A stretch of DNA of 27,076 nucleotides from a virus: positions 1 through 27,076 of IMG/VR virus record IMGVR_UViG_3300021347_000028; one strand, given 5' to 3'. Position 1 is the first letter of the stretch. Every line of letters starts with the position of its first letter. The notes beneath the pieces were generated by a model that was not told the DNA's origin, made no database searches, and worked only from the letters and a program-made list of their open reading frames with translations. Below, one piece after another: positions 3,296 through 15,368 of this stretch. The position numbers and the translations under genes were made by a program.

Positions 3296-3948
3296 TAGAA
3301 TACGATCCAATAGAAATAAATACAGATTTAGAACAGCACACTAAAAAATCTGGAAGGTATTATACTGATATAGAAGGTAATAGATATTATTCTGTTACTA
3401 CCGTATTATCGATTTTAAATAAAGAAGCTATAATGGCTTGGCGTAAAAGAGTTGGCAACGAAGAAGCTAATCGTATATCAACCCAAGCAGCTACTCGAGG
3501 AACAAAGGTTCACGATATGATAGAAAAATATATCGTGGGAGAAGAATTTGATCAGGATAATTTGATTGCATTATCTAATTTTAAAGATATACAACCTATT
3601 ATAGATCAGAACCTAACTAAAATCCATGCAGTTGAAGCACGGTTATTTTCTAAGCATTTAGGATTAGCTGGAACCGTAGACTGTGTAGGAATTTGGGATG
3701 GTAAGCTTAGCATTATTGATTGGAAAACATCCAAGAAATATAAAAAGAAAGAATGGTGTGAAAACTATTTTATGCAAGCTTCTGCATATGCTATTATGTG
3801 GGAAGAAAGAACTGGCATGCCAATTACTAATTTAGTCGTTGCTATTGCTGGTGATGAAGGTGCTCAGATCTTTATTGAACATAGAGATAACTGGGATAAA
3901 AAATTAATAGAAACTATAACAGAATATAATAGGAGAAAAAACAAATGA
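3292..3948 (+). CDS. PD-(D/E)XK-family nuclease (MGME1/RecB-like exonuclease)
   Basis: A 218-residue nuclease. The core reads GTVDCVGIWDG then IIDWKTSKK, giving the Asp and D-x-K residues of the PD-(D/E)XK active site, followed by QASAYAIMW, which matches the QxxxY motif of RecB-like exonucleases. The YYSVTTVLS element near the N-terminus is typical of phage members of this family. A role in DNA end processing or host DNA degradation is inferred. I chose ATG 3292, which makes an ATGA overlap with the upstream gene, over an in-frame ATG at 3268. Downstream it overlaps the peroxiredoxin gene by four bases. Confidence 0.85.
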   Translation: MIEYDPIEINTDLEQHTKKSGRYYTDIEGNRYYSVTTVLSILNKEAIMAWRKRVGNEEANRISTQAATRGTKVHDMIEKYIVGEEFDQDNLIALSNFKDIQPIIDQNLTKIHAVEARLFSKHLGLAGTVDCVGIWDGKLSIIDWKTSKKYKKKEWCENYFMQASAYAIMWEERTGMPITNLVVAIAGDEGAQIFIEHRDNWDKKLIETITEYNRRKNK

Positions 3949-4451
3949 TAGGCGTAAACGAATCATTTCCTACATTCCATATGAATGGAGTAGAGGGAGA
4001 AGAATTAGTTGTTAGAAATTCTATGGACTATAGCGGATGGAGAGTATTTTATTTCTATCCTAAAGACTTTACTTTTATTTGCCCAACAGAGATTGTTGCA
4101 ATGGATAAATTATTAGGTGAAGCTCAAGTGGTAGGATTTAGTGGAGATAATGAGTTTTGTAAAAAAGCTTGGAAAGAATCTTTACCAGATACTCTCGGAA
4201 ATATCAGACATACTTTATTGGCAGATTGCGGATTAAAATTATCCCATGAACTAGGTATCGTAGATTTTGGTGCACTTGTTTCTTTAAGAGCAACATACAT
4301 TGTTGATCCAGAAGATAAGATCCAACACGTATCAGTTAATGCATTAGATACGGGAAGAAATGCAGATGAGGTTTTAAGAACTTTACAAGGACTTAAAGCT
4401 GGAGGTTTAACAGGTTGCTCGTGGAATCCGGGTGACGAATTCGTGGTATAA
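3945..4451 (+). CDS. Peroxiredoxin (AhpC/TSA 2-Cys type)
   Basis: A thiol peroxidase of 168 residues that reduces hydrogen peroxide or organic peroxides. The peroxidatic Cys46 lies in DFTFICPTEI, the signature of the Prx1/AhpC class. A second Cys at 158 in LTGCSWNPGD is placed like the resolving Cys, although the usual VCP context is changed. The catalytic Thr of PTE is present, and RATYIVDPEDKI matches the family's C-terminal core. It shares an ATGA overlap with the nuclease gene and is therefore an early gene under P1. This is an auxiliary metabolic gene, probably host-derived, that may protect the infected cell from oxidative stress. Confidence 0.92.
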   Translation: MIGVNESFPTFHMNGVEGEELVVRNSMDYSGWRVFYFYPKDFTFICPTEIVAMDKLLGEAQVVGFSGDNEFCKKAWKESLPDTLGNIRHTLLADCGLKLSHELGIVDFGALVSLRATYIVDPEDKIQHVSVNALDTGRNADEVLRTLQGLKAGGLTGCSWNPGDEFVV

Positions 4452-7511: not shown

Positions 7512-7952
7512 ATGGCTTACTCAAGTAAGGTAGTAGATCGATTCGAAGATGTACTAAAGAATCCTGCCAAACACGGTGTTGGTAGGTTCGATCCTAAAGA
7601 TCCAAATGTCGTAACTGGTTTAGCAGGCGCACCAGCCTGTGGTGATGTTATGAAGTTGGATCTAAAACTAAACCCAGACACGGATGAAATACTCGATGTC
7701 AAATTTAAAACCTATGGATGCGGAAGTGCAATTGCTTCATCGACAATGTTTGTTGAAATGCTTAAAGGTAAAACACTTGAACAAGCAAAACAAATTAAAG
7801 ATAAAGAAATTGCAGCAGCTCTTGAATTACCTCCAATTAAACTCCATTGTTCTGTATTAGCAGAAGAAACTATTCAAACTGCTATTAAAGATTGGGAGAA
7901 GAAACAAGCACACCGTAAACATAACAACCCTCCAGATGTTAGATCTAACTGA
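7512..7952 (+). CDS. iscU: IscU-like iron-sulfur cluster scaffold
   Basis: IscU is the scaffold on which the IscS desulfurase and iron build [2Fe-2S] clusters. The protein has 146 residues and the three cluster-ligand Cys of the family: Cys43 in GAPACGDVM with the conserved Asp45, Cys70 in KTYGCGSAIASS and Cys113 in KLHCSVLAEE. The HscA-recognition LPPIK motif (residues 106-110), used for cluster release by the chaperone pair, is intact immediately before the third Cys. It should therefore be able to plug into the host ISC machinery. It overlaps the IscA gene by 17 bases. It is likely host-derived; its late-unit position suggests use late in infection. Confidence 0.95.
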   Translation: MAYSSKVVDRFEDVLKNPAKHGVGRFDPKDPNVVTGLAGAPACGDVMKLDLKLNPDTDEILDVKFKTYGCGSAIASSTMFVEMLKGKTLEQAKQIKDKEIAAALELPPIKLHCSVLAEETIQTAIKDWEKKQAHRKHNNPPDVRSN

Positions 7953-8253
7953 TGCTGCGATCAATCAGGCGATTAGCAAAACGCAGGATGATGGCAACGA
8001 TACTATCCGAGTTGGTGTTACTGGTGGCGGTTGTACTGGCTTTAAGTACATTTTTGATTTTGCTGAAACAGTCCATTCAACTGATCATATCCTAGATTAC
8101 GGGAAATTCAAAATAGTAATAGATGAGGATTCTCTTCCTCTTTTAGACGAGGCAATTATCGATTTTGTCCAGGAAGGTCTAAACCAATCATTTAAGATAA
8201 TCAATCCTAAAGAAACCGCTTCCTGCGGATGTGGCGTTAGTATCTCATTCTAG
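7936..8253 (+). CDS. iscA: A-type iron-sulfur carrier, IscA/ErpA-like
   Basis: The A-type carrier accepts clusters or iron and hands them to apo-proteins. The 105-residue length is normal for IscA, and the three invariant Cys are present: Cys33 in GGGCTGFKY, and Cys97 and Cys99 in the C-terminal SCGCGVSISF. It starts inside the end of the iscU-like gene, so the two are coupled. No desulfurase, ferredoxin or HscA/HscB lies in the window, so it would depend on host partners. The choice between IscA, ErpA and SufA cannot be settled from the sequence alone. Confidence 0.93.
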   Translation: MLDLTDAAINQAISKTQDDGNDTIRVGVTGGGCTGFKYIFDFAETVHSTDHILDYGKFKIVIDEDSLPLLDEAIIDFVQEGLNQSFKIINPKETASCGCGVSISF

Positions 8254-8265
8254 CGACCTAAATTA

Positions 8266-8273
8266 TATAAATA
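8266..8273 (+). promoter_or_regulatory. T4-type late promoter (TATAAATA) before the curli-like locus
   Basis: An exact TATAAATA lies 13 bases after the iscA stop. The expected start site, about 5-6 bases downstream, coincides with the ATG at 8279, so the message would be leaderless. It is the only recognisable promoter at the head of the curli-like locus and implies late expression. Confidence 0.65.
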
Positions 8274-8278
8274 GCTAT

Positions 8279-8572
8279 ATGGAAATATTTGAACTAATTA
8301 TGGAAGTAGGTGCGCCAGTCGCAGGTGCATTATTAATGGGTTATTTTATATTCCTAATATTAAAACAGATATTAGGGGGTTTGGTTGATTCGATTAGTAC
8401 TCTAACTATGTTTTGCAAAAGTCTAGAAACAAGAGTGAATACTATGAATAACGAAATGATTAAAATAGATTTATTAGTAAGTAGCGCATTAGAACTTACT
8501 CCACCTATCGAAAGAGTTGCTAGAGCTAGTAACTTTATCGAAGACGGTAAAATAGACGCAAGGAGAGACTAA
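8279..8572 (+). CDS. Small single-TM protein with coiled coil (paralogue 1)
   Basis: A 97-residue protein with one N-terminal transmembrane segment (GAPVAGALLMGYFIFLILKQ) followed by a cytoplasmic or periplasmic helical part (residues 35-70) with heptad spacing. I chose ATG 8279, which directly follows the late promoter and aligns with the start of the next gene, over an upstream in-frame start at 8231 inside iscA. The arrangement, and the shared GYFI after a Gly-rich hydrophobic stretch, match the next gene, so the pair probably arose by duplication. A holin-like role (BhlA-type architecture) or a membrane part of the curli-like system are both possible. Confidence 0.62.
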   Translation: MEIFELIMEVGAPVAGALLMGYFIFLILKQILGGLVDSISTLTMFCKSLETRVNTMNNEMIKIDLLVSSALELTPPIERVARASNFIEDGKIDARRD

Positions 8573-8898
8573 TGGACGAGATTGCAATAAGTAATGATCC
8601 TACAATAGTGCAACTTATAAACGATTATGGATTTCCAATTGTATTAGCAGTTGGAATGGGATATTTTATATATTATGTTTGGCAATTTATTTCCAATGAA
8701 TTAGAACCTGAAATAGAAAAGATGCACATGCAACTTATCAGGTTAATTGATCAGGTAAGAATGCTTGATCAGGATATGATACGATTACAACAAAAGGTAA
8801 ATGTTGTACTTGAATATAGAGAGAGACAAAAATTCTTAGAAGACGTAGAAGAAAAAGAAGCTCTTGCGGAGAAACAAAAACATGAAGAGACCAAGTAA
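8572..8898 (+). CDS. Small single-TM protein with coiled coil (paralogue 2)
   Basis: A 108-residue protein with an N-terminal transmembrane segment (YGFPIVLAVGMGYFIYYVWQ) and then a long amphipathic helix with regular hydrophobic spacing to residue 85. A charged Glu/Lys tail follows. It shares layout and the MGYFI element with its upstream neighbour, and its ATG overlaps that gene's stop by one base (TAATG). The 3' end overlaps csgF by 17 bases. Possible holin or inner-membrane accessory; I do not recognise a named family. Confidence 0.65.
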   Translation: MDEIAISNDPTIVQLINDYGFPIVLAVGMGYFIYYVWQFISNELEPEIEKMHMQLIRLIDQVRMLDQDMIRLQQKVNVVLEYRERQKFLEDVEEKEALAEKQKHEETK

Positions 8899-9442
8899 CG
8901 CAGGATTAAGTCCCTGGCTATTGACAGGTATTTTTTTCGGTATAGTATTACTAATGGGTAAAGTAAATGCCGACGAATTAGTACATGAATTTAAAAACCC
9001 ATCATTTTCGGGTATTGGAACCTCAGCACACTATCTAACTGTAGAAAACCAAGAGAAATCCAGAAGAGATGCTATTAAAAAAGATATAGAAGCAGCTTTA
9101 AAACAGGCCGAAAGAGATGCAGAGAATACAACCCTTGCTAAATTTATGCGTAACCTTGAAAGCAGGATTTACGCACAACTATCTAAACAACTAGTAGAAA
9201 AATTATTCGAAACCTGTACAGTAGAGGCAGTAGCTGCTGGAACATGTACAGAAACAACATTTGGTAGTTTTGTTCTGGAAGGAAATACAATTACCTATCA
9301 AAAGACAACATGTGATGCTTCCCTGTGGGCTTGTACCCAAGGGGATCAGGTTATTGTTATGACAATTATTGCAGAAGATGGAACAGAAACCCAAATAGTA
9401 ATACCAATAGGAGCGGGGACAGCAGGAAGTGGAATCGGTTAG
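8882..9442 (+). CDS. csgF: CsgF-like curli assembly factor
   Basis: CsgF binds the outer-membrane CsgG pore, extends it to the cell surface and couples secretion to fibre nucleation. Seen: an N-terminal export signal ending near residue 30 (GKVNA), then at once HEFKNPSFSGIG, which corresponds to the FRNPNFGG sequence of E. coli CsgF, the part that plugs into CsgG. The protein is longer than E. coli CsgF (about 186 against 138 residues). The extra length includes a charged helical stretch (residues 55-85) and a C-terminal domain with four Cys in two pairs. ATG 8882 is preferred to TTG 8864 because GGAG lies about 10 bases upstream. It is followed by csgG with a 14-base overlap. Confidence 0.85.
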   Translation: MKRPSNAGLSPWLLTGIFFGIVLLMGKVNADELVHEFKNPSFSGIGTSAHYLTVENQEKSRRDAIKKDIEAALKQAERDAENTTLAKFMRNLESRIYAQLSKQLVEKLFETCTVEAVAAGTCTETTFGSFVLEGNTITYQKTTCDASLWACTQGDQVIVMTIIAEDGTETQIVIPIGAGTAGSGIG

Positions 9443-10406
9443 AAATTTATTTTTAATATCATTACTTGCGCTGCTTGTTAGTAGCTGTGCTTCTATTGTA
9501 CCACCTGGTGGATTAGATGCAAAGAATTGTAACCCAAATTTAAATCTAGCATGTGTAGAAAAACCAGAAGTGGTTGAAATGCCTACACACGAAGAATTAA
9601 GAAAATTACCATCACCAGAAAATCCAGTTATTGTAGCAGTCTACAAATATACAGATAAAACTGGACAAAGAAAACAAAAAGGAAATGCAGCAATGTTTAG
9701 TACTGCAGTTTCTCAAGGTGGTGAAACAATGCTAATTGATGCATTGAAAAGTGCCGGTGAAGGTACATGGTTTAGAGTGGTAGAAAGAGTAGGATTAGAT
9801 CACCTAACTCGTGAACGACAAATTGTTCGTACTACTAGAGAACAGTATAACACTGATGGAGAAGATAAAACAGGTCTTGCTCCATTATTGTTCGCTGGAA
9901 TAATTCTCGAAGGAGGTATCATAGGTTTCGATACCAATATTGAGACAGGAGGAGTGGGAGCTAGAACTCTTGGCATTGGTTACTCACAACAATACCGAAG
10001 AGATATAGTTACTGTTTCCCTCCGAGCAGTGAGTACATTAACAGGAGAAATTCTGCTTAATGTCCAAGCATCAAAAACTATTCTGTCGATCGCAGATGGT
10101 TATGATGTGTTTAAATTCGTTGATATGGACACCCAATTGATAGAGATTGAAGATGGGATGACAGAGAACGAATCAGTGACACGGTCGCTTCGCTCAACTA
10201 TTGAAGCAGCTGTGTTGGAATTAATATATCAGGGAGATGAACGAGGATTCTGGGAAATCAATTGGCCAGTAAACAAAATGATAGAAGGCAAAGTTGGGGA
10301 AATTATCGACGATGCTGAAATTGTCTATACTGAACCATCTGACATTCCGGAAGAAGTTCCTACCCCTGACAATATAGAGGAAATAATCGATGAAAATGTT
10401 AAATAG
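9429..10406 (+). CDS. csgG: CsgG-like curli secretion channel lipoprotein, GTG start
   Basis: CsgG is the outer-membrane nonameric pore that exports curli subunits. Seen: a lipoprotein signal with Cys20 in LLVSSCASIV. Then come elements co-linear with E. coli CsgG: VYKYTDKTGQRK, FSTAVSQGGETMLIDAL, GTWFRVVERVGLDHLTRERQ, GIILEGGIIGFDTNI, GGVGARTLGIG, STLTGEILLNVQASKTILS, and RGFWEINWP near the end. Length is 325 residues against 277 in E. coli, the extra being a C-terminal acidic Pro-rich tail. At the constriction the Tyr51 and Asn55 equivalents appear to be Gly and Met, while Phe56 is kept. It overlaps csgF upstream and the curlin-like gene by 17 bases downstream. Confidence 0.94.
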   Translation: MESVRNLFLISLLALLVSSCASIVPPGGLDAKNCNPNLNLACVEKPEVVEMPTHEELRKLPSPENPVIVAVYKYTDKTGQRKQKGNAAMFSTAVSQGGETMLIDALKSAGEGTWFRVVERVGLDHLTRERQIVRTTREQYNTDGEDKTGLAPLLFAGIILEGGIIGFDTNIETGGVGARTLGIGYSQQYRRDIVTVSLRAVSTLTGEILLNVQASKTILSIADGYDVFKFVDMDTQLIEIEDGMTENESVTRSLRSTIEAAVLELIYQGDERGFWEINWPVNKMIEGKVGEIIDDAEIVYTEPSDIPEEVPTPDNIEEIIDENVK

Positions 10407-11118
10407 ATATATCGCATTTTTGTTTATATTATGCCCTGTGGTTTTATTTGCCGGAACAAATGATAACGAAGTCAAGCTTGACCAATCTGGTGATACACTT
10501 AAATTATACATTGACCAAATAGGTTATGGTAATAAGATTTGTGGATCCATCAGCTCTGGAGCGTGTGCTAGTGATTGGGTGTTAACCGGTAATACCGTAA
10601 CAATGGATATTGATATGATTGGTAACTTGAACCAAGTCTTTGGTCCAACTCTTTTTGATAGTACTGATGTAGATTTAAAATTTACTGGTAGTAGTAATAT
10701 CTGGGATTGGAACGTAGGTTATGGTGGAAGTGCTGATTCATCAGTATTAGATGTTGACATCACTGGAAGTTCAAACACTTTCGATATAGATTGGGGTTAT
10801 TCAGCTTCATCCGAAAGATTGGATTTCGATTTAGACATCACTGGTGGTTCTAATGTTTGGAACATCGACATAGAAAACGATGATGCAACTTGGAACGTAG
10901 ACGTTATTGGAAGTTCTAATAACTTTGTTACATCAATGTCAGATGGTGCTTATAATTCCCTTACTATGGAATATATAGGTTCAAACGGCGACATTGATAT
11001 AATACAATCCTCCGGAACATGCCCAACAGGCACAACTGGATGTTATGGTGTTATAAATGCAGACTTTGATTCAGAAAATGCAGTCATTGACATTAAGCAA
11101 AAAGATACTGGCGACTAG
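10390..11118 (+). CDS. Curlin-like secreted repeat protein 1 (candidate amyloid subunit)
   Basis: A 242-residue exported protein with a signal peptide ending near residue 21 (VVLFAG). The mature part is about seven beta-type repeats of roughly 20 residues. The first, LYIDQIGYGNKI, is a classical curlin unit (I-x-Q-x-G-x-x-N). Later ones, such as VDITGSSNTFDIDW and LDITGGSNVWNIDI, keep the G-S-S-N turn but replace the Gln ladder by Asp and aromatics. One Cys pair lies near the start of the mature region and another near the end. GAGG at 10376-10379 serves the ATG inside the csgG end. Position directly after csgG strongly suggests it is the exported substrate. Divergence from CsgA leaves amyloid formation unproven. 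Confidence 0.75.
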   Translation: MKMLNRYIAFLFILCPVVLFAGTNDNEVKLDQSGDTLKLYIDQIGYGNKICGSISSGACASDWVLTGNTVTMDIDMIGNLNQVFGPTLFDSTDVDLKFTGSSNIWDWNVGYGGSADSSVLDVDITGSSNTFDIDWGYSASSERLDFDLDITGGSNVWNIDIENDDATWNVDVIGSSNNFVTSMSDGAYNSLTMEYIGSNGDIDIIQSSGTCPTGTTGCYGVINADFDSENAVIDIKQKDTGD

Positions 11119-12226
11119 TCTACTAGTCTTTAGTTCTTTTACTTTTGCAAATGATATTGGCGATATAACAGAACACAAGGGCAGTGGTGGAATAACTCGC
11201 GAAGGTGAGAGTTTTACCACTGAACTTGGATTAGGTGTCCAGCAAATGGATGCTATTGAAACGGCCAAAGGTCGTATTAAATTAACTTTCTTAGATGATA
11301 CAGTATTAAGATTAGTAGAACATACAGAAGTTGTACTAACTAAATATTATTTTGATCCTAATGATACTAAGAATAATTCTCTTGGTATGAAGTTTGTATC
11401 TGGTACAGCAAGATTTGCTACAGGTGGATTAGGATTAGTACCAAAAGAGAATATAGTAATAACAACTCCTACAGCTACTATTGCAGTTAGGGGAACAGAT
11501 TTTACTACTACTGTGGATGAGTTAGGTCGAAGTTTAGTTATACTTCTTCCAGAAACAGAATGTACAATAGATGGAGATTGTTCACCATCTGGAGCTATCA
11601 CAGTAACAAATGAAGGTGGTACGGTATCACTGACCGAAGCATACCAAGCAACAATGGTATCAAGCTTTGATAAAATACCTACACAACCCGTAGTTTTAGA
11701 TAATATAAATTTAAATATGATAGACAATATGTTTATCGTAGCACCACCTCAAGAAATAAAAGAAGTGGTAGAAGAAGAAAGCAAATCTGCAGATAGAGGT
11801 AATTCTTTATTAGACTTTAATGAACTCGACCAGGATTTATTAAAAGAAGAATGGGAAGAAGAAGATTTAGAATATACCGAACTTGATATGGATTTATTGG
11901 ATGTAGATTTTTTACAAGATGTTTTAGTCGCGATTGAAGAAGTTAATATATTAAAACGTAGTACTCAAGCATCTCAGTCTGCAGGATCAGGTACAGCTGA
12001 TATTCAAGGTACTGTTTTGGGGTTTGATAAAGATACCCAATATAATACTATTATAGATCAGGGTATGGGTCAAATATGGTTTTATAGAGAAGTAAATGGT
12101 ATTATATCAGTTAAAATTCCTATAGATAGTAATACAACATTAAGGAGCGAGAATGAAGGTAAAGAAAACCTTATTACTGTTGGCGATGGTCAGTCTATCG
12201 TTATCATCATACGTCAAGGCGGGTGA
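11078..12226 (+). CDS. FecR-domain periplasmic protein
   Basis: A secreted protein of about 382 residues. A signal peptide (KKILATSLLVFSSFTFA) is followed by a FecR domain: IKLTFLDDTVLRLVEHTEVV, FVSGTARFATGG and then TPTATIAVRGTDFTTTVDEL, the typical beta-strand and IAVRGT-DF pattern. A long acidic linker (EEEWEEEDLEY-type composition) and a C-terminal beta domain follow. FecR domains act in the periplasm as signal relays or envelope ligand-binding modules. No sigma factor is adjacent; the nearby signalling partner is the CHASE2 cyclase. The start is uncertain: ATG 11057, ATG 11078 and TTG 11087 are in frame, all within the preceding gene and none with a strong ribosome-binding site. The 3' end overlaps the next gene by 74 bases. 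Confidence 0.82.
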   Translation: MQSLTLSKKILATSLLVFSSFTFANDIGDITEHKGSGGITREGESFTTELGLGVQQMDAIETAKGRIKLTFLDDTVLRLVEHTEVVLTKYYFDPNDTKNNSLGMKFVSGTARFATGGLGLVPKENIVITTPTATIAVRGTDFTTTVDELGRSLVILLPETECTIDGDCSPSGAITVTNEGGTVSLTEAYQATMVSSFDKIPTQPVVLDNINLNMIDNMFIVAPPQEIKEVVEEESKSADRGNSLLDFNELDQDLLKEEWEEEDLEYTELDMDLLDVDFLQDVLVAIEEVNILKRSTQASQSAGSGTADIQGTVLGFDKDTQYNTIIDQGMGQIWFYREVNGIISVKIPIDSNTTLRSENEGKENLITVGDGQSIVIIIRQGG

Positions 12227-12980
12227 TGAGCACAACCATGTAAATATAGATCAGGTTAGTTCTTCTGATAATTTCAACCTGTCTATTGAACAAGTTGGAA
12301 ATGCTAACTTAGCAAGATTCTCTTTCGATCATAATTCGAATACATTAAACCTTTTACAATTCGGAAGTGAGAACTATTTTGGATATTCAGATGCATGGGG
12401 TTCTGGTTTTAGTTGGGGTGGTGATTTAGATGGTGCTTCGAATAACATAGATGTTAGACAAAAATGTTCTGCTGGAGCTAACTGTAATGATAACGATTTT
12501 CAATTCCATGTTTGGGGTGATAATAACATAGTTAAGTTTGGCCAAGGTTATTCTTTAAATGATACTTCTAATTGGAGTCCAACATGGAATTATGATGGTA
12601 ATGAACCTGGTGGAAACTTTGTTCTATTGGATATCCACGGTGATTCAAATAAATTTATTGGAAGCCAAAAGATGGATACGAGTACTATATCCCATTCTAT
12701 GACCGTAAAAATATATTCAGATTCAAATGACGTATTTGCTAGACAAGCACAGAATGGAAATAAAACCCTAACACTTCAAATCAATAGCGGAAATGATGGT
12801 AATGATGTTTATATTAACCAAAGAGATAACGGTGCACATACCGCAACTATTACTTTGTCTGGATCATATCCAACAGATTTAGATTTACTGCAAAGAGGAA
12901 ACACAAATCAAAGTTATTCACTTACACAAAATTGTCTGACAGTAGGTGGTTGTTCAGTATCAGTAACACAAGGAAATTAA
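12153..12980 (+). CDS. Curlin-like secreted repeat protein 2 (candidate amyloid subunit)
   Basis: A 275-residue exported protein with a signal peptide to about residue 23 (LSSYVKAG). The mature region carries curlin-type units such as IEQVGNANLARF, LNLLQFGSENYF, VYINQRDNGAHT and LLQRGNTNQSYSLTQ, closer to the CsgA/CsgB consensus (Q-x-G-x-x-N) than repeat protein 1. Between them are Asp/Asn-rich turns such as HGDSNKF and YSDSNDVF. A Cys pair near residues 105-111 and another near the C-terminus could make disulfides. AAGGAG (12142-12147) five bases before the ATG is a strong ribosome-binding site although it lies inside the FecR gene. It probably supplies the major or nucleating subunit of the phage fibre. 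Confidence 0.78.
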   Translation: MKVKKTLLLLAMVSLSLSSYVKAGDEHNHVNIDQVSSSDNFNLSIEQVGNANLARFSFDHNSNTLNLLQFGSENYFGYSDAWGSGFSWGGDLDGASNNIDVRQKCSAGANCNDNDFQFHVWGDNNIVKFGQGYSLNDTSNWSPTWNYDGNEPGGNFVLLDIHGDSNKFIGSQKMDTSTISHSMTVKIYSDSNDVFARQAQNGNKTLTLQINSGNDGNDVYINQRDNGAHTATITLSGSYPTDLDLLQRGNTNQSYSLTQNCLTVGGCSVSVTQGN

Positions 12981-12981
12981 A

Positions 12982-13239
12982 ATGACAGAATGTCCAGAAG
13001 AATATTATGAATGTCTTACAGAAGAAGAATGGGATGATATAGTAGATTTATTTGAAGAGAATGAAATTATCATGCCTGAAGAATTAGGTGATGCACAAGC
13101 AGCAATTAATTTTACGTGGGAGATTCTATTTTTATCCCCATGGGAATTAGCATATATAGCATTACCAATGAGTGTTTTAGCATTCTATGGTTTAACGATA
13201 TATAGCATATTTAAATACATACAAAAGAAATTTAGCTAG
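12982..13239 (+). CDS. Small single-TM protein with acidic N-terminus
   Basis: An 85-residue protein. The first 45 residues are strongly acidic (CLTEEEWDDIVDLFEENEII) and the C-terminal third is a transmembrane segment (WELAYIALPMSVLAFYGLTI) ending in a short basic tail KYIQKKFS, giving an N-out, C-in arrangement by the positive-inside rule. It starts one base after the curlin-like gene stop and lies just before the cyclase. I recognise no family; a membrane tether or regulator of the adjacent system is a guess. Confidence 0.65.
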   Translation: MTECPEEYYECLTEEEWDDIVDLFEENEIIMPEELGDAQAAINFTWEILFLSPWELAYIALPMSVLAFYGLTIYSIFKYIQKKFS

Positions 13240-13261
13240 TATTGCATAGTATAACACTTTT

Positions 13262-15115
13262 ATGAAATACCTAACAACAATATGGACAAGTATAGCACTT
13301 TGTATAGCACTTTTAGGAATCAGAATAGCTGATCCAGACATAGTAGAACAAATAAGATTAAACACATTCGATCAATATATTAAGAGCTTACCCGACAAGG
13401 AATCCGATGTTGTTCTACTATCACTCGGGGAAGAAACATTATCTGTCTATGGACAATATCCCTTTCCAAGACATACCTACGCACAATTAATATCTGACTT
13501 AAGAAATGCAAATGCTGGGATGATAGCATTTACTATTATGTTTCCAGAGGCAGATAGGTTTGGTGGTGATGAGGTATTTATTTCTTGGGTAAACAATAAT
13601 GGTATTATATTAGCACAAGATGCATCTTCTCGCGGGCGCTCGGACACGGCTCCGTACGTGGGTACGGCCACGCTCGGCGAGGGCGACGCGTACGACTTTG
13701 TTCCTAAATATAAAGGTTTAGTTACTAATATACAACCACTAGAAGAAGCTGCATGGGGTGTGGGATTAATAAATGCTGGTAAAGAAGTAGATAATATAAC
13801 AAGACGTATTCCTTTATTGTCCCAAATAAACGGACAGTTATATCCATCAATGCCTTTAGAAATCATAAGAGTGTTACAAGATAAAAAGTCATATAGCTTA
13901 AAAGCCGACTATGATGGTATAAAAGATGTAATGATTCCACCATACGATCCTATTAAAACAGATTATAATAGTTCTATATGGTTAAATACTAATTATACCC
14001 ATACTGAATATGAATATGGAAAAGATGTATTACCTAATCTGGAAGGTCAAACAGTCCTGGTCGGTCTAACAGCAAGTGGCCTTGCTTCTCAAATACCCAC
14101 TCCTCAAGGTTTGTTTTCTGCTCATCAACTTCAGGCTTCTGCTCTTCAAACAATAATGGATGGGACAAGCATATCTCGTCCTCAATGGGCTGATCTTCTA
14201 GAGTTAGGTTTAATGATAGTTGGGTCATTGATGATTGTGACATCGATATACTACCTTTCTGTGTGGGTTGGTGCTGTAGCCTTCTTCGGCGTTGTCTCTG
14301 CCTACGGTGCTTTAGTCTGGTACTTCTGGACCTCAAGTGGGATACTCCTTGATCTATCCTATTCTATAATAGTATATATACTTTCTTTCGCTTCAAGCGC
14401 GTTCAATAATTTTTACATCCAGTTTAAACTACGTCAGCAGATAAAAGGACAATTCAGTACATACTTATCTCCTGATCTAGTAAATCAATTAGTGAAGAAT
14501 CCAGAACTAATGGTATTAGGTGGTGAGCGTAAAGAGATGACATTTATGTTCATGGATATAATTGGGTTTACTCCTATTAGTGAAGCATATAAAGAACAAG
14601 ACGATCCAGAAGGATTAGTTGAATTAATTAACTATTATTTAGATACTATGACTAAAATTATACTTAGAAATGGCGGTACTATAGATAAGTATATGGGGGA
14701 TTGTATAATGGCTTTCTGGAACGCCCCACTCGATTGTCCAGATCATGCAAATAAGGCGGTAACCACCGCGATGGAAATACTTGATGCGGGAAAAGCACTA
14801 CAAAAAGAACTGGAAGATAAAGGTTTGCCAAGCATTGGTGTTGGTATTGGTATCAATACCGGTGACTGCATTGTCGGAAACATGGGATCAGAATCTCGAT
14901 TTGACTATTCCGTCATTGGAGATGCCGTCAATCTCGGCGCTAGACTCGAGGGACAAACAAGAAATTATGATGGGGTGGACTTGCTGCTATCAGAATTCAC
15001 TTATAGAAAATGTACGGACGGAGCATTTACGAAAGTCGACCGAATCAATGTTAAAGGCAAATCAGAGGCCGTTACGATTTATACATGTATCGGTAGAACC
15101 AACAACTCAGACTAA
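13262..15115 (+). CDS. CHASE2-sensor transmembrane adenylate cyclase, class III
   Basis: A 617-residue membrane enzyme predicted to make cAMP from ATP. Order: an N-terminal transmembrane helix (about 7-25); a periplasmic CHASE2 domain (about 28-305; EETLSVYGQYPFPRHTYAQL, later GLVTNIQPLEEAAWGVGLIN); three transmembrane helices (about 315-385); and a class III cyclase domain (about 420-605). Catalytic residues look intact: metal-binding Asp in FMFMDIIGF and YMGDCIMAF, purine-selecting Lys in TIDKYMGD, Ser in DYSVIGD (Ser/Thr here favours ATP over GTP), and the transition-state Asn and Arg in AVNLGARLEG. It is full length. A 60-base GC-rich island lies in the CHASE2 coding part (13631-13690). 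No clear promoter was found in the 22-base gap before it. It is likely host-derived and acts with the curli-like locus. Confidence 0.93.
   Translation: MKYLTTIWTSIALCIALLGIRIADPDIVEQIRLNTFDQYIKSLPDKESDVVLLSLGEETLSVYGQYPFPRHTYAQLISDLRNANAGMIAFTIMFPEADRFGGDEVFISWVNNNGIILAQDASSRGRSDTAPYVGTATLGEGDAYDFVPKYKGLVTNIQPLEEAAWGVGLINAGKEVDNITRRIPLLSQINGQLYPSMPLEIIRVLQDKKSYSLKADYDGIKDVMIPPYDPIKTDYNSSIWLNTNYTHTEYEYGKDVLPNLEGQTVLVGLTASGLASQIPTPQGLFSAHQLQASALQTIMDGTSISRPQWADLLELGLMIVGSLMIVTSIYYLSVWVGAVAFFGVVSAYGALVWYFWTSSGILLDLSYSIIVYILSFASSAFNNFYIQFKLRQQIKGQFSTYLSPDLVNQLVKNPELMVLGGERKEMTFMFMDIIGFTPISEAYKEQDDPEGLVELINYYLDTMTKIILRNGGTIDKYMGDCIMAFWNAPLDCPDHANKAVTTAMEILDAGKALQKELEDKGLPSIGVGIGINTGDCIVGNMGSESRFDYSVIGDAVNLGARLEGQTRNYDGVDLLLSEFTYRKCTDGAFTKVDRINVKGKSEAVTIYTCIGRTNNSD
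13631..13692 (+). other. In-frame GC-rich island within the cyclase gene
   Basis: By direct count 47 of the 60 bases at 13631-13690 are G or C, whereas flanking coding sequence is AT-rich. The reading frame stays open and the codons are nearly all G/C-ending (CGC, TCG, GAC, ACG, GGC). CCGTAC and GTACGG inside it form a 6-bp hairpin with a 4-base loop. Confidence 0.85.
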
Positions 15116-15368
15116 AAGACAATTTTATATTTTAAATACTATTGATTTAATAACAACAATCTATGGATTAAGTTGTTCACCAAATATAAAAGAAGGTAAT
15201 ATTTTCCTAAATGAAAGACCAGAAAATTATCAACTGATTTTACATAAAGCAATCTTAAGTCCTACAATTGAACAAAATTTCTCTGATCCACAACTAGAAA
15301 TGGTTAACCTCGCGCTACAGGTAGCAATCATTAATAATCTATTCACTATCAACAAATCCTGTTGGTAA
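15048..15368 (+). CDS. Small membrane-associated protein, possibly DUF5658-like
   Basis: About 106 residues, with RQFYILNTIDLITTIYGL followed by KEGNIFLNERPENY. This resembles small membrane proteins of the DUF5658 type, with a short hydrophobic helix then a polar motif, and a second hydrophobic helix near the C-terminus (MVNLALQVAIINNLF). Only the part after 15115 is free of overlap with the cyclase gene. The exact start is uncertain, and I use ATG 15048, an in-frame start within the cyclase end. The frame extends further upstream but that part is an out-of-frame shadow of the cyclase domain. Confidence 0.5.
   Translation: MLKANQRPLRFIHVSVEPTTQTKRQFYILNTIDLITTIYGLSCSPNIKEGNIFLNERPENYQLILHKAILSPTIEQNFSDPQLEMVNLALQVAIINNLFTINKSCW

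Follow-up and report, generated by a model that had tools for sequence, protein, structure and literature searches.

A partial phage curli cluster was described in 2020 together with the proposal that it serves sibling capture (PMC7029224), and in 2022 the curli operon of phage Melnitz was proposed to control lysis (PMC9004378). The whole unit was set out the same year for pelagiphage podoviruses and myoviruses, in a study that also reported expression of the module in metatranscriptomes and that places FecR and cyclase genes outside bacterial curli operons (PMC9599517). Its module definition (CsgF-CsgG-CsgA/B-FecR-CsgA/B-AC behind one or two small genes) also describes the locus analyzed here, which lies in a 27,076-base IMG/VR fragment of a T4-like phage (hereafter, the window). 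A first-pass annotation of the window had suggested that the unit of pore, plug, two subunits, FecR protein, and cyclase may be new; priority for this unit belongs to PMC9599517. The suggested roles (an extracellular matrix, a block to superinfection, or an altered host surface) likewise appear in PMC7029224, PMC9004378, and PMC9599517, and are compatible with our results. Within the accessible open-licence literature, we did not find exchange of the second curlin gene, the conserved promoter spacing, a correction of a kinase label, or the locus in Hyphomonas sp. TMED17.

The pelagiphage type VIII module (in HTVC023P-type podoviruses and in pelagimyophages, including HTVC008M, NC_020484) matches the window in genes and order, including FecR, both curlins, and the cyclase, and also carries two small leading genes. 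Methylophilales phage Melnitz shares eight genes with the window in identical order; PMC9004378 reads its operon as a lysis pore without fibre genes, whereas the Melnitz record annotates two curlin-repeat proteins. The E. coli csgBAC-csgDEFG system shares CsgG and CsgF homologues and curlin-like repeats with the phage module, but in the latter CsgE was not found, a FecR protein and a cyclase are added, and the curlins are weakly similar.

Gene content and conservation of the locus

The T4-like character of the window is indicated by a T4 RNase H and by tail and baseplate genes, and its gp32-like SSB finds its best matches in Melnitz, cyanophages, and Mosig. From such relatives, we infer that the host was SAR11 or a similar marine bacterium. 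The module (8279–15115) consists of nine genes on one strand, with short overlaps or 1–22 base gaps between them. Its products are CsgF and CsgG, a pair of secreted proteins resembling curlins, a secreted protein with a FecR domain, a class III nucleotide cyclase of the CHASE2 type, and small membrane proteins:

8266–8273, + strand: T4-type late promoter element TATAAATA, 5 nt before the ATG at 8279
8279–8572, + strand: smA, 97-aa single-TM coiled-coil protein (phrog_18771, 3.7e-23)
8572–8898, + strand: smB, 108-aa smA paralogue (phrog_18771, 2.2e-28)
8882–9442, + strand: CsgF, pore plug/extracellular chaperone (Pfam PF10614, 5.1e-10)
9429–10406, + strand: CsgG, outer-membrane secretion pore lipoprotein (Pfam PF03783, 6.1e-48)
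10390–11118, + strand: cur1, conserved curlin-like secreted protein (weak Curlin_rpt match; weak CsgA model)
11057–12226, + strand: fecR, FecR-domain protein with signal peptide (Pfam PF04773, 2.5e-10)
12153–12980, + strand: cur2, variable curlin-like secreted protein (allele exchange; relatives match Curlin_rpt)
12982–13239, + strand: tm85, optional small protein with one TM segment (relatives in a minority of loci)
13262–15115, + strand: cyc, CHASE2 sensor with class III nucleotide cyclase (PF05226, 4e-34; PF00211, Guanylate_cyc, 1.2e-18)

A scan of viral contigs with CsgG returned 106 relatives, 80 of which were kept. In these roughly 80 IMG/VR contigs, the order smA-smB-csgF-csgG-cur1-fecR-cur2-(tm85)-cyc is constant as far as each contig extends, and it is the same in the cultured phages HTVC008M and Melnitz. 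Mosig EXVC030M infects the same host as HTVC008M (HTCC1062), and its genome yielded no match for CsgG, smA, or the cyclase. Both curlin-like genes are kept in every extended locus; in a minority of loci, a tm85 relative sits between cur2 and cyc. Pfam matches, gene layout, and this constant order confirm the annotated one-direction CsgF/CsgG/FecR/CHASE2 cyclase locus in a T4-like phage. All the genes it named are present, though it left out the three small membrane-protein genes (8279–8572, 8572–8898, and 12982–13239). Identical junctions recur in about 80 contigs and both cultured phages, and an assembly chimaera was rejected on this ground.

All module genes are under purifying selection in close pairs. 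Between the window and locus L004, omega was 0.05 for smA, 0.07 for smB, 0.15 for csgF, 0.20 for csgG, 0.10 for cur1, 0.20 for fecR, 0.28 for cur2, and 0.13 for cyc. Across the pairs, scattered higher values appear where dS was very small or cur2 had been replaced. The most conserved gene is smA, for which omega was about 0.04–0.07 against most close relatives.

Several neighbouring genes were also noted. Two Fe-S scaffold genes (NifU_N/IscU-like and Fe-S_biosyn/IscA-like) lie at 7512–8253, just before the module, and relatives of both adjoin the module in a contig from a SAR11 bin (L238), where the IscU-like protein is 74% identical. An open frame at 15099–15365, which extends from within the cyclase gene as far as 15368, has a weak DUF5658 match (20 bits, under the cut-off). 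In L238, it also matches (39%) a portion of a 151-aa gene that sits between fecR and cyc. No start codon lies just past the cyclase stop, so the frame is perhaps a remnant or else an overlapping gene. A phage AhpC/TSA peroxiredoxin is encoded at 3945–4451 (PF00578, 4e-19).

Promoter, leading genes, and secretion pore

The TATAAATA element does not occur in the window more often than chance predicts (6 seen versus 5.7 expected), and the argument for a late promoter from motif count alone was therefore dropped in favour of a spacing test. The pattern [T/C]ATAAATA-N5-ATG stands at the smA start in 63/80 loci, represented by 26 distinct 16-mers, and 878 kb of viral loci contain it 81 times on the operon (+) strand but just once on the (−) strand. 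It was missing at the smA starts of HTVC008M and Melnitz, and a wider smA set contained it in 37/80, so part of the group lacks the pattern. The late promoter proposed from the first inspection is thus upheld by conserved spacing to the first ATG. The geometry of T4 late promoters provides the basis for placing the transcript start, which would apparently coincide with the A of the smA ATG, predicting a leaderless late mRNA.

Alignment of the paralogues smA and smB shows that each has about 95 aa, a single hydrophobic helix, and a tail resembling a coiled coil. They are confined to the curli-type module: the smA scan found smB in 80/80 loci and csgF alongside in 78/80, the two loci without a visible csgF being a short contig and L292. 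Judging from position, these are apparently the small genes called histidine kinases in PMC9599517. We found no kinase domain in either protein in Pfam or NCBIfam, and HATPase_c was absent from the window and from the whole genomes of HTVC008M and Melnitz; the highest His column in the alignment reached 7% in smA and 86% in smB. Since there is no HATPase_c catalytic domain, the histidine kinase label does not apply.

Among the pore components, and in addition to its Pfam match, the CsgG profile matched the solved E. coli CsgG at 1e-66, and the window protein carries a VSSC lipobox, with a similar lipobox in 69/81 copies; it is 47% identical to HTVC008M CsgG, and its constriction-loop residues, Phe excepted, are unlike those of E. 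coli. CsgF, whose start is more probably 8882 (a correction to an earlier gene call), has the CsgG-binding N-terminus: a motif of type F-K-[SN]-P-[SA]-F-[SN]-G-x-G is present in 76/81 phage CsgF proteins and aligns with bacterial CsgF. A CsgE counterpart, reported as not visible in the first-pass annotation, was indeed not matched in the window, HTVC008M, Melnitz, a 130-kb relative, or TMED17, in a search that detected the E. coli control. PMC9599517 describes alphaproteobacterial curli modules without CsgE, which is therefore no universal feature.

Curlin-like proteins, FecR protein, and cyclase

Relatives of both curlin-like proteins match Curlin_rpt in Pfam (8/47 for cur1 and 16/51 for cur2), but the window cur1 scored 16.9 bits, below the 20.7 cut-off, and the window cur2 had no match. 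AlphaFold2 models of both were all-beta (pLDDT 82 and pTM 0.77 for cur1; pLDDT 75 and pTM 0.77 for cur2), and Foldseek searches with these models returned nothing significant, the weak matches including many to beta-solenoids.

The gene for the second curlin, cur2, is a cassette for allele exchange. Operon pairs with CsgG 97–100% identical can differ in cur2 to the point of 43–48% amino acid identity, with flanking DNA 86–100% identical and the interior about 50%. In L026/L027, CsgG is identical and DNA around cur2 is 95–100% identical, but inside cur2 identity falls to about 50% (45% for the protein); L044/L046 (CsgG 99%, cyclase 96%, cur2 43%) and L041/L042 (CsgG 97%, cur2 48%, cyclase 60%) show similar replacement. 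Both ends of cur2 are more conserved than the interior, and other close pairs retain like cur2, so exchange is episodic. In HTVC008M, cur2 matches Curlin_rpt and also PA14, the latter above its gathering cut-off. We infer that cur2 is the exposed, adhesive part of the structure. A bolder and tentative reading, with odds a little short of even, makes it an allele-switched surface fibre whose interiors recombine between near-identical operons, such that cells infected by different phages would display different fibres. If it is true, cur2 would be an antigen-like variable system on the infected cell, not on the virion.

In the alignment, the FecR domain comes immediately after an opening stretch that resembles a signal peptide, and the cytoplasmic anti-sigma part and membrane helix that precede this domain in iron-signalling regulators are not there. 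By its predicted architecture, it is a secreted FecR domain and not an iron-signalling anti-sigma regulator. The cyclase has the catalytic residues of class III adenylate cyclases (two metal Asp, purine Lys, and Asn/Arg): both Asp residues, the Lys, and the Arg are invariant in 37 phage copies, and the transition-state Asn is present in 36/37, the exception having Ser. Ser replaces this Asn in the Melnitz cyclase (L003:13625-15676) and also in L094. The best solved relatives are adenylate cyclases, which, together with the purine Lys, suggest that the product is cAMP. Cyclic-nucleotide-binding domains occurred in 4/99 SAR11-family genomes; six phage records, among them HTVC008M and Melnitz, contained none.

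Origin and role of the module

Outside phages, the sequence csgF-csgG-curlin-fecR-cyclase was found on a 705-kb contig of the MAG Hyphomonas sp. TMED17 (NHBW01000006.1). These five genes are like the phage module in order and strand, but smA/smB and cur2 are absent and metabolic genes flank the locus. In a CsgG tree, all phage copies and that of TMED17 stand apart from 25 canonical bacterial CsgG proteins (100/99), with TMED17 on a long branch inside the phage clade; its locus may represent kin of the donor or a recipient. An origin in SAR11 hosts was rejected: CsgG matches occurred in 3/197 SAR11-family genomes, two on phage contigs (one with a terminase, the other next to an IscU gene that is a close relative of the window's) and the third on a contig of 3 kb whose neighbouring genes are of phage type. 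Support was likewise lacking for FecR-cyclase pairs elsewhere in the alphaproteobacteria, TMED17 being the sole strong match in a FecR profile search of 385 genomes, for which its own sequence was in the profile; the remaining FecR neighbourhoods that were retrieved contained none of the module's genes, although several of those contigs ended just past fecR.

Phage-type curli contigs also turned up in MAGs assigned to Bacteroidota, Planctomycetota, Synechococcus, Rhodobacteraceae, and Pelagibacter (L084–L090 and L092–L095), and are probably misbinned phage DNA. A 1,499-base phage record labelled Salmonella phage S.Kent 1-2-1 (OR851715.1) has a CsgG homologue that is possibly host DNA.

We consider the best explanation to be a late phage type VIII (curli) module that gives the dying host an altered, phage-specific surface (probability roughly 0.6). 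Following the promoter at 8266, host machinery would make CsgG, which by homology would form an outer-membrane pore, and CsgF, whose motifs suggest that it plugs the outer mouth of that pore. Two curlin-like, putatively beta-solenoid proteins with signal peptides would exit via CsgG and assemble on the infected-cell surface, cur1 perhaps as a conserved scaffold or nucleator and cur2, whose variation is plain, as a putatively exposed, adhesive, and diversifying subunit. The secreted FecR protein and the periplasmic CHASE2 sensor could sense the state of the secretion compartment and adjust the cAMP level through the cytoplasmic domain. The likely outcome would be a changed host surface that wards off competing phages or tethers the cell to those around it. 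Counting against this explanation are the sub-threshold curlin matches of the window's own proteins, the Foldseek searches without a significant match, the lack of clumping in Melnitz infections (PMC9004378), and the scarcity of cyclic-nucleotide-binding domains in SAR11-family genomes and their absence from HTVC008M and Melnitz.

These outcomes can be put in more specific forms. A coat that hides receptors and so excludes superinfecting phages, with cur2 under frequency-dependent selection, is a real if doubtful possibility: allele exchange centres on cur2, conserved promoter spacing points to late expression, and the general form of the idea is found in PMC9599517, though superinfection exclusion usually acts early and the module operon looks late. 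Sibling capture, in which the fibres stick infected cells to those nearby and newly released virions thereby encounter hosts even in dilute water, was proposed in PMC7029224 and PMC9599517, and would suit the PA14 domain in one cur2. We regard it as unlikely, given that Melnitz infections showed no clumping according to PMC9004378, and that adhesion among kin would favour conserved subunits over exchanged ones (strain-specific partners could explain the exchange).

We rate as improbable the repurposing of CsgG:CsgF for lysis timing, as a pinholin or gated pore with the other genes as regulators or passengers. This is the proposal made for Melnitz in PMC9004378, and the late promoter, a phage lysozyme about 1 kb upstream of the module, and a weak 20-residue match of smB to a holin family are in keeping with it. 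An outer-membrane pore alone, however, does not breach the inner membrane, the CsgF pore-plug motif is retained, and two secreted curlin-like proteins persist in every extended locus, one of them diversified and once fused to PA14; the exchange of cur2 speaks for a surface-exposed role rather than for a lysis pore. A use of the pore to take up large nutrients or cofactors, suggested in PMC7029224 and PMC9599517 and in line with the missing CsgE gate and the adjoining phage Fe-S scaffold genes, is very hard to credit, as it leaves CsgF, two curlins, and cur2 exchange unexplained.

The kinase-label correction removes a misleading regulatory model from this system. If the module works, viruses of very abundant ocean bacteria would re-coat their hosts with protein fibres, which would bear on superinfection, aggregation, and carbon export, and the exchange of cur2 offers a concrete, testable handle on the purpose of the coat.
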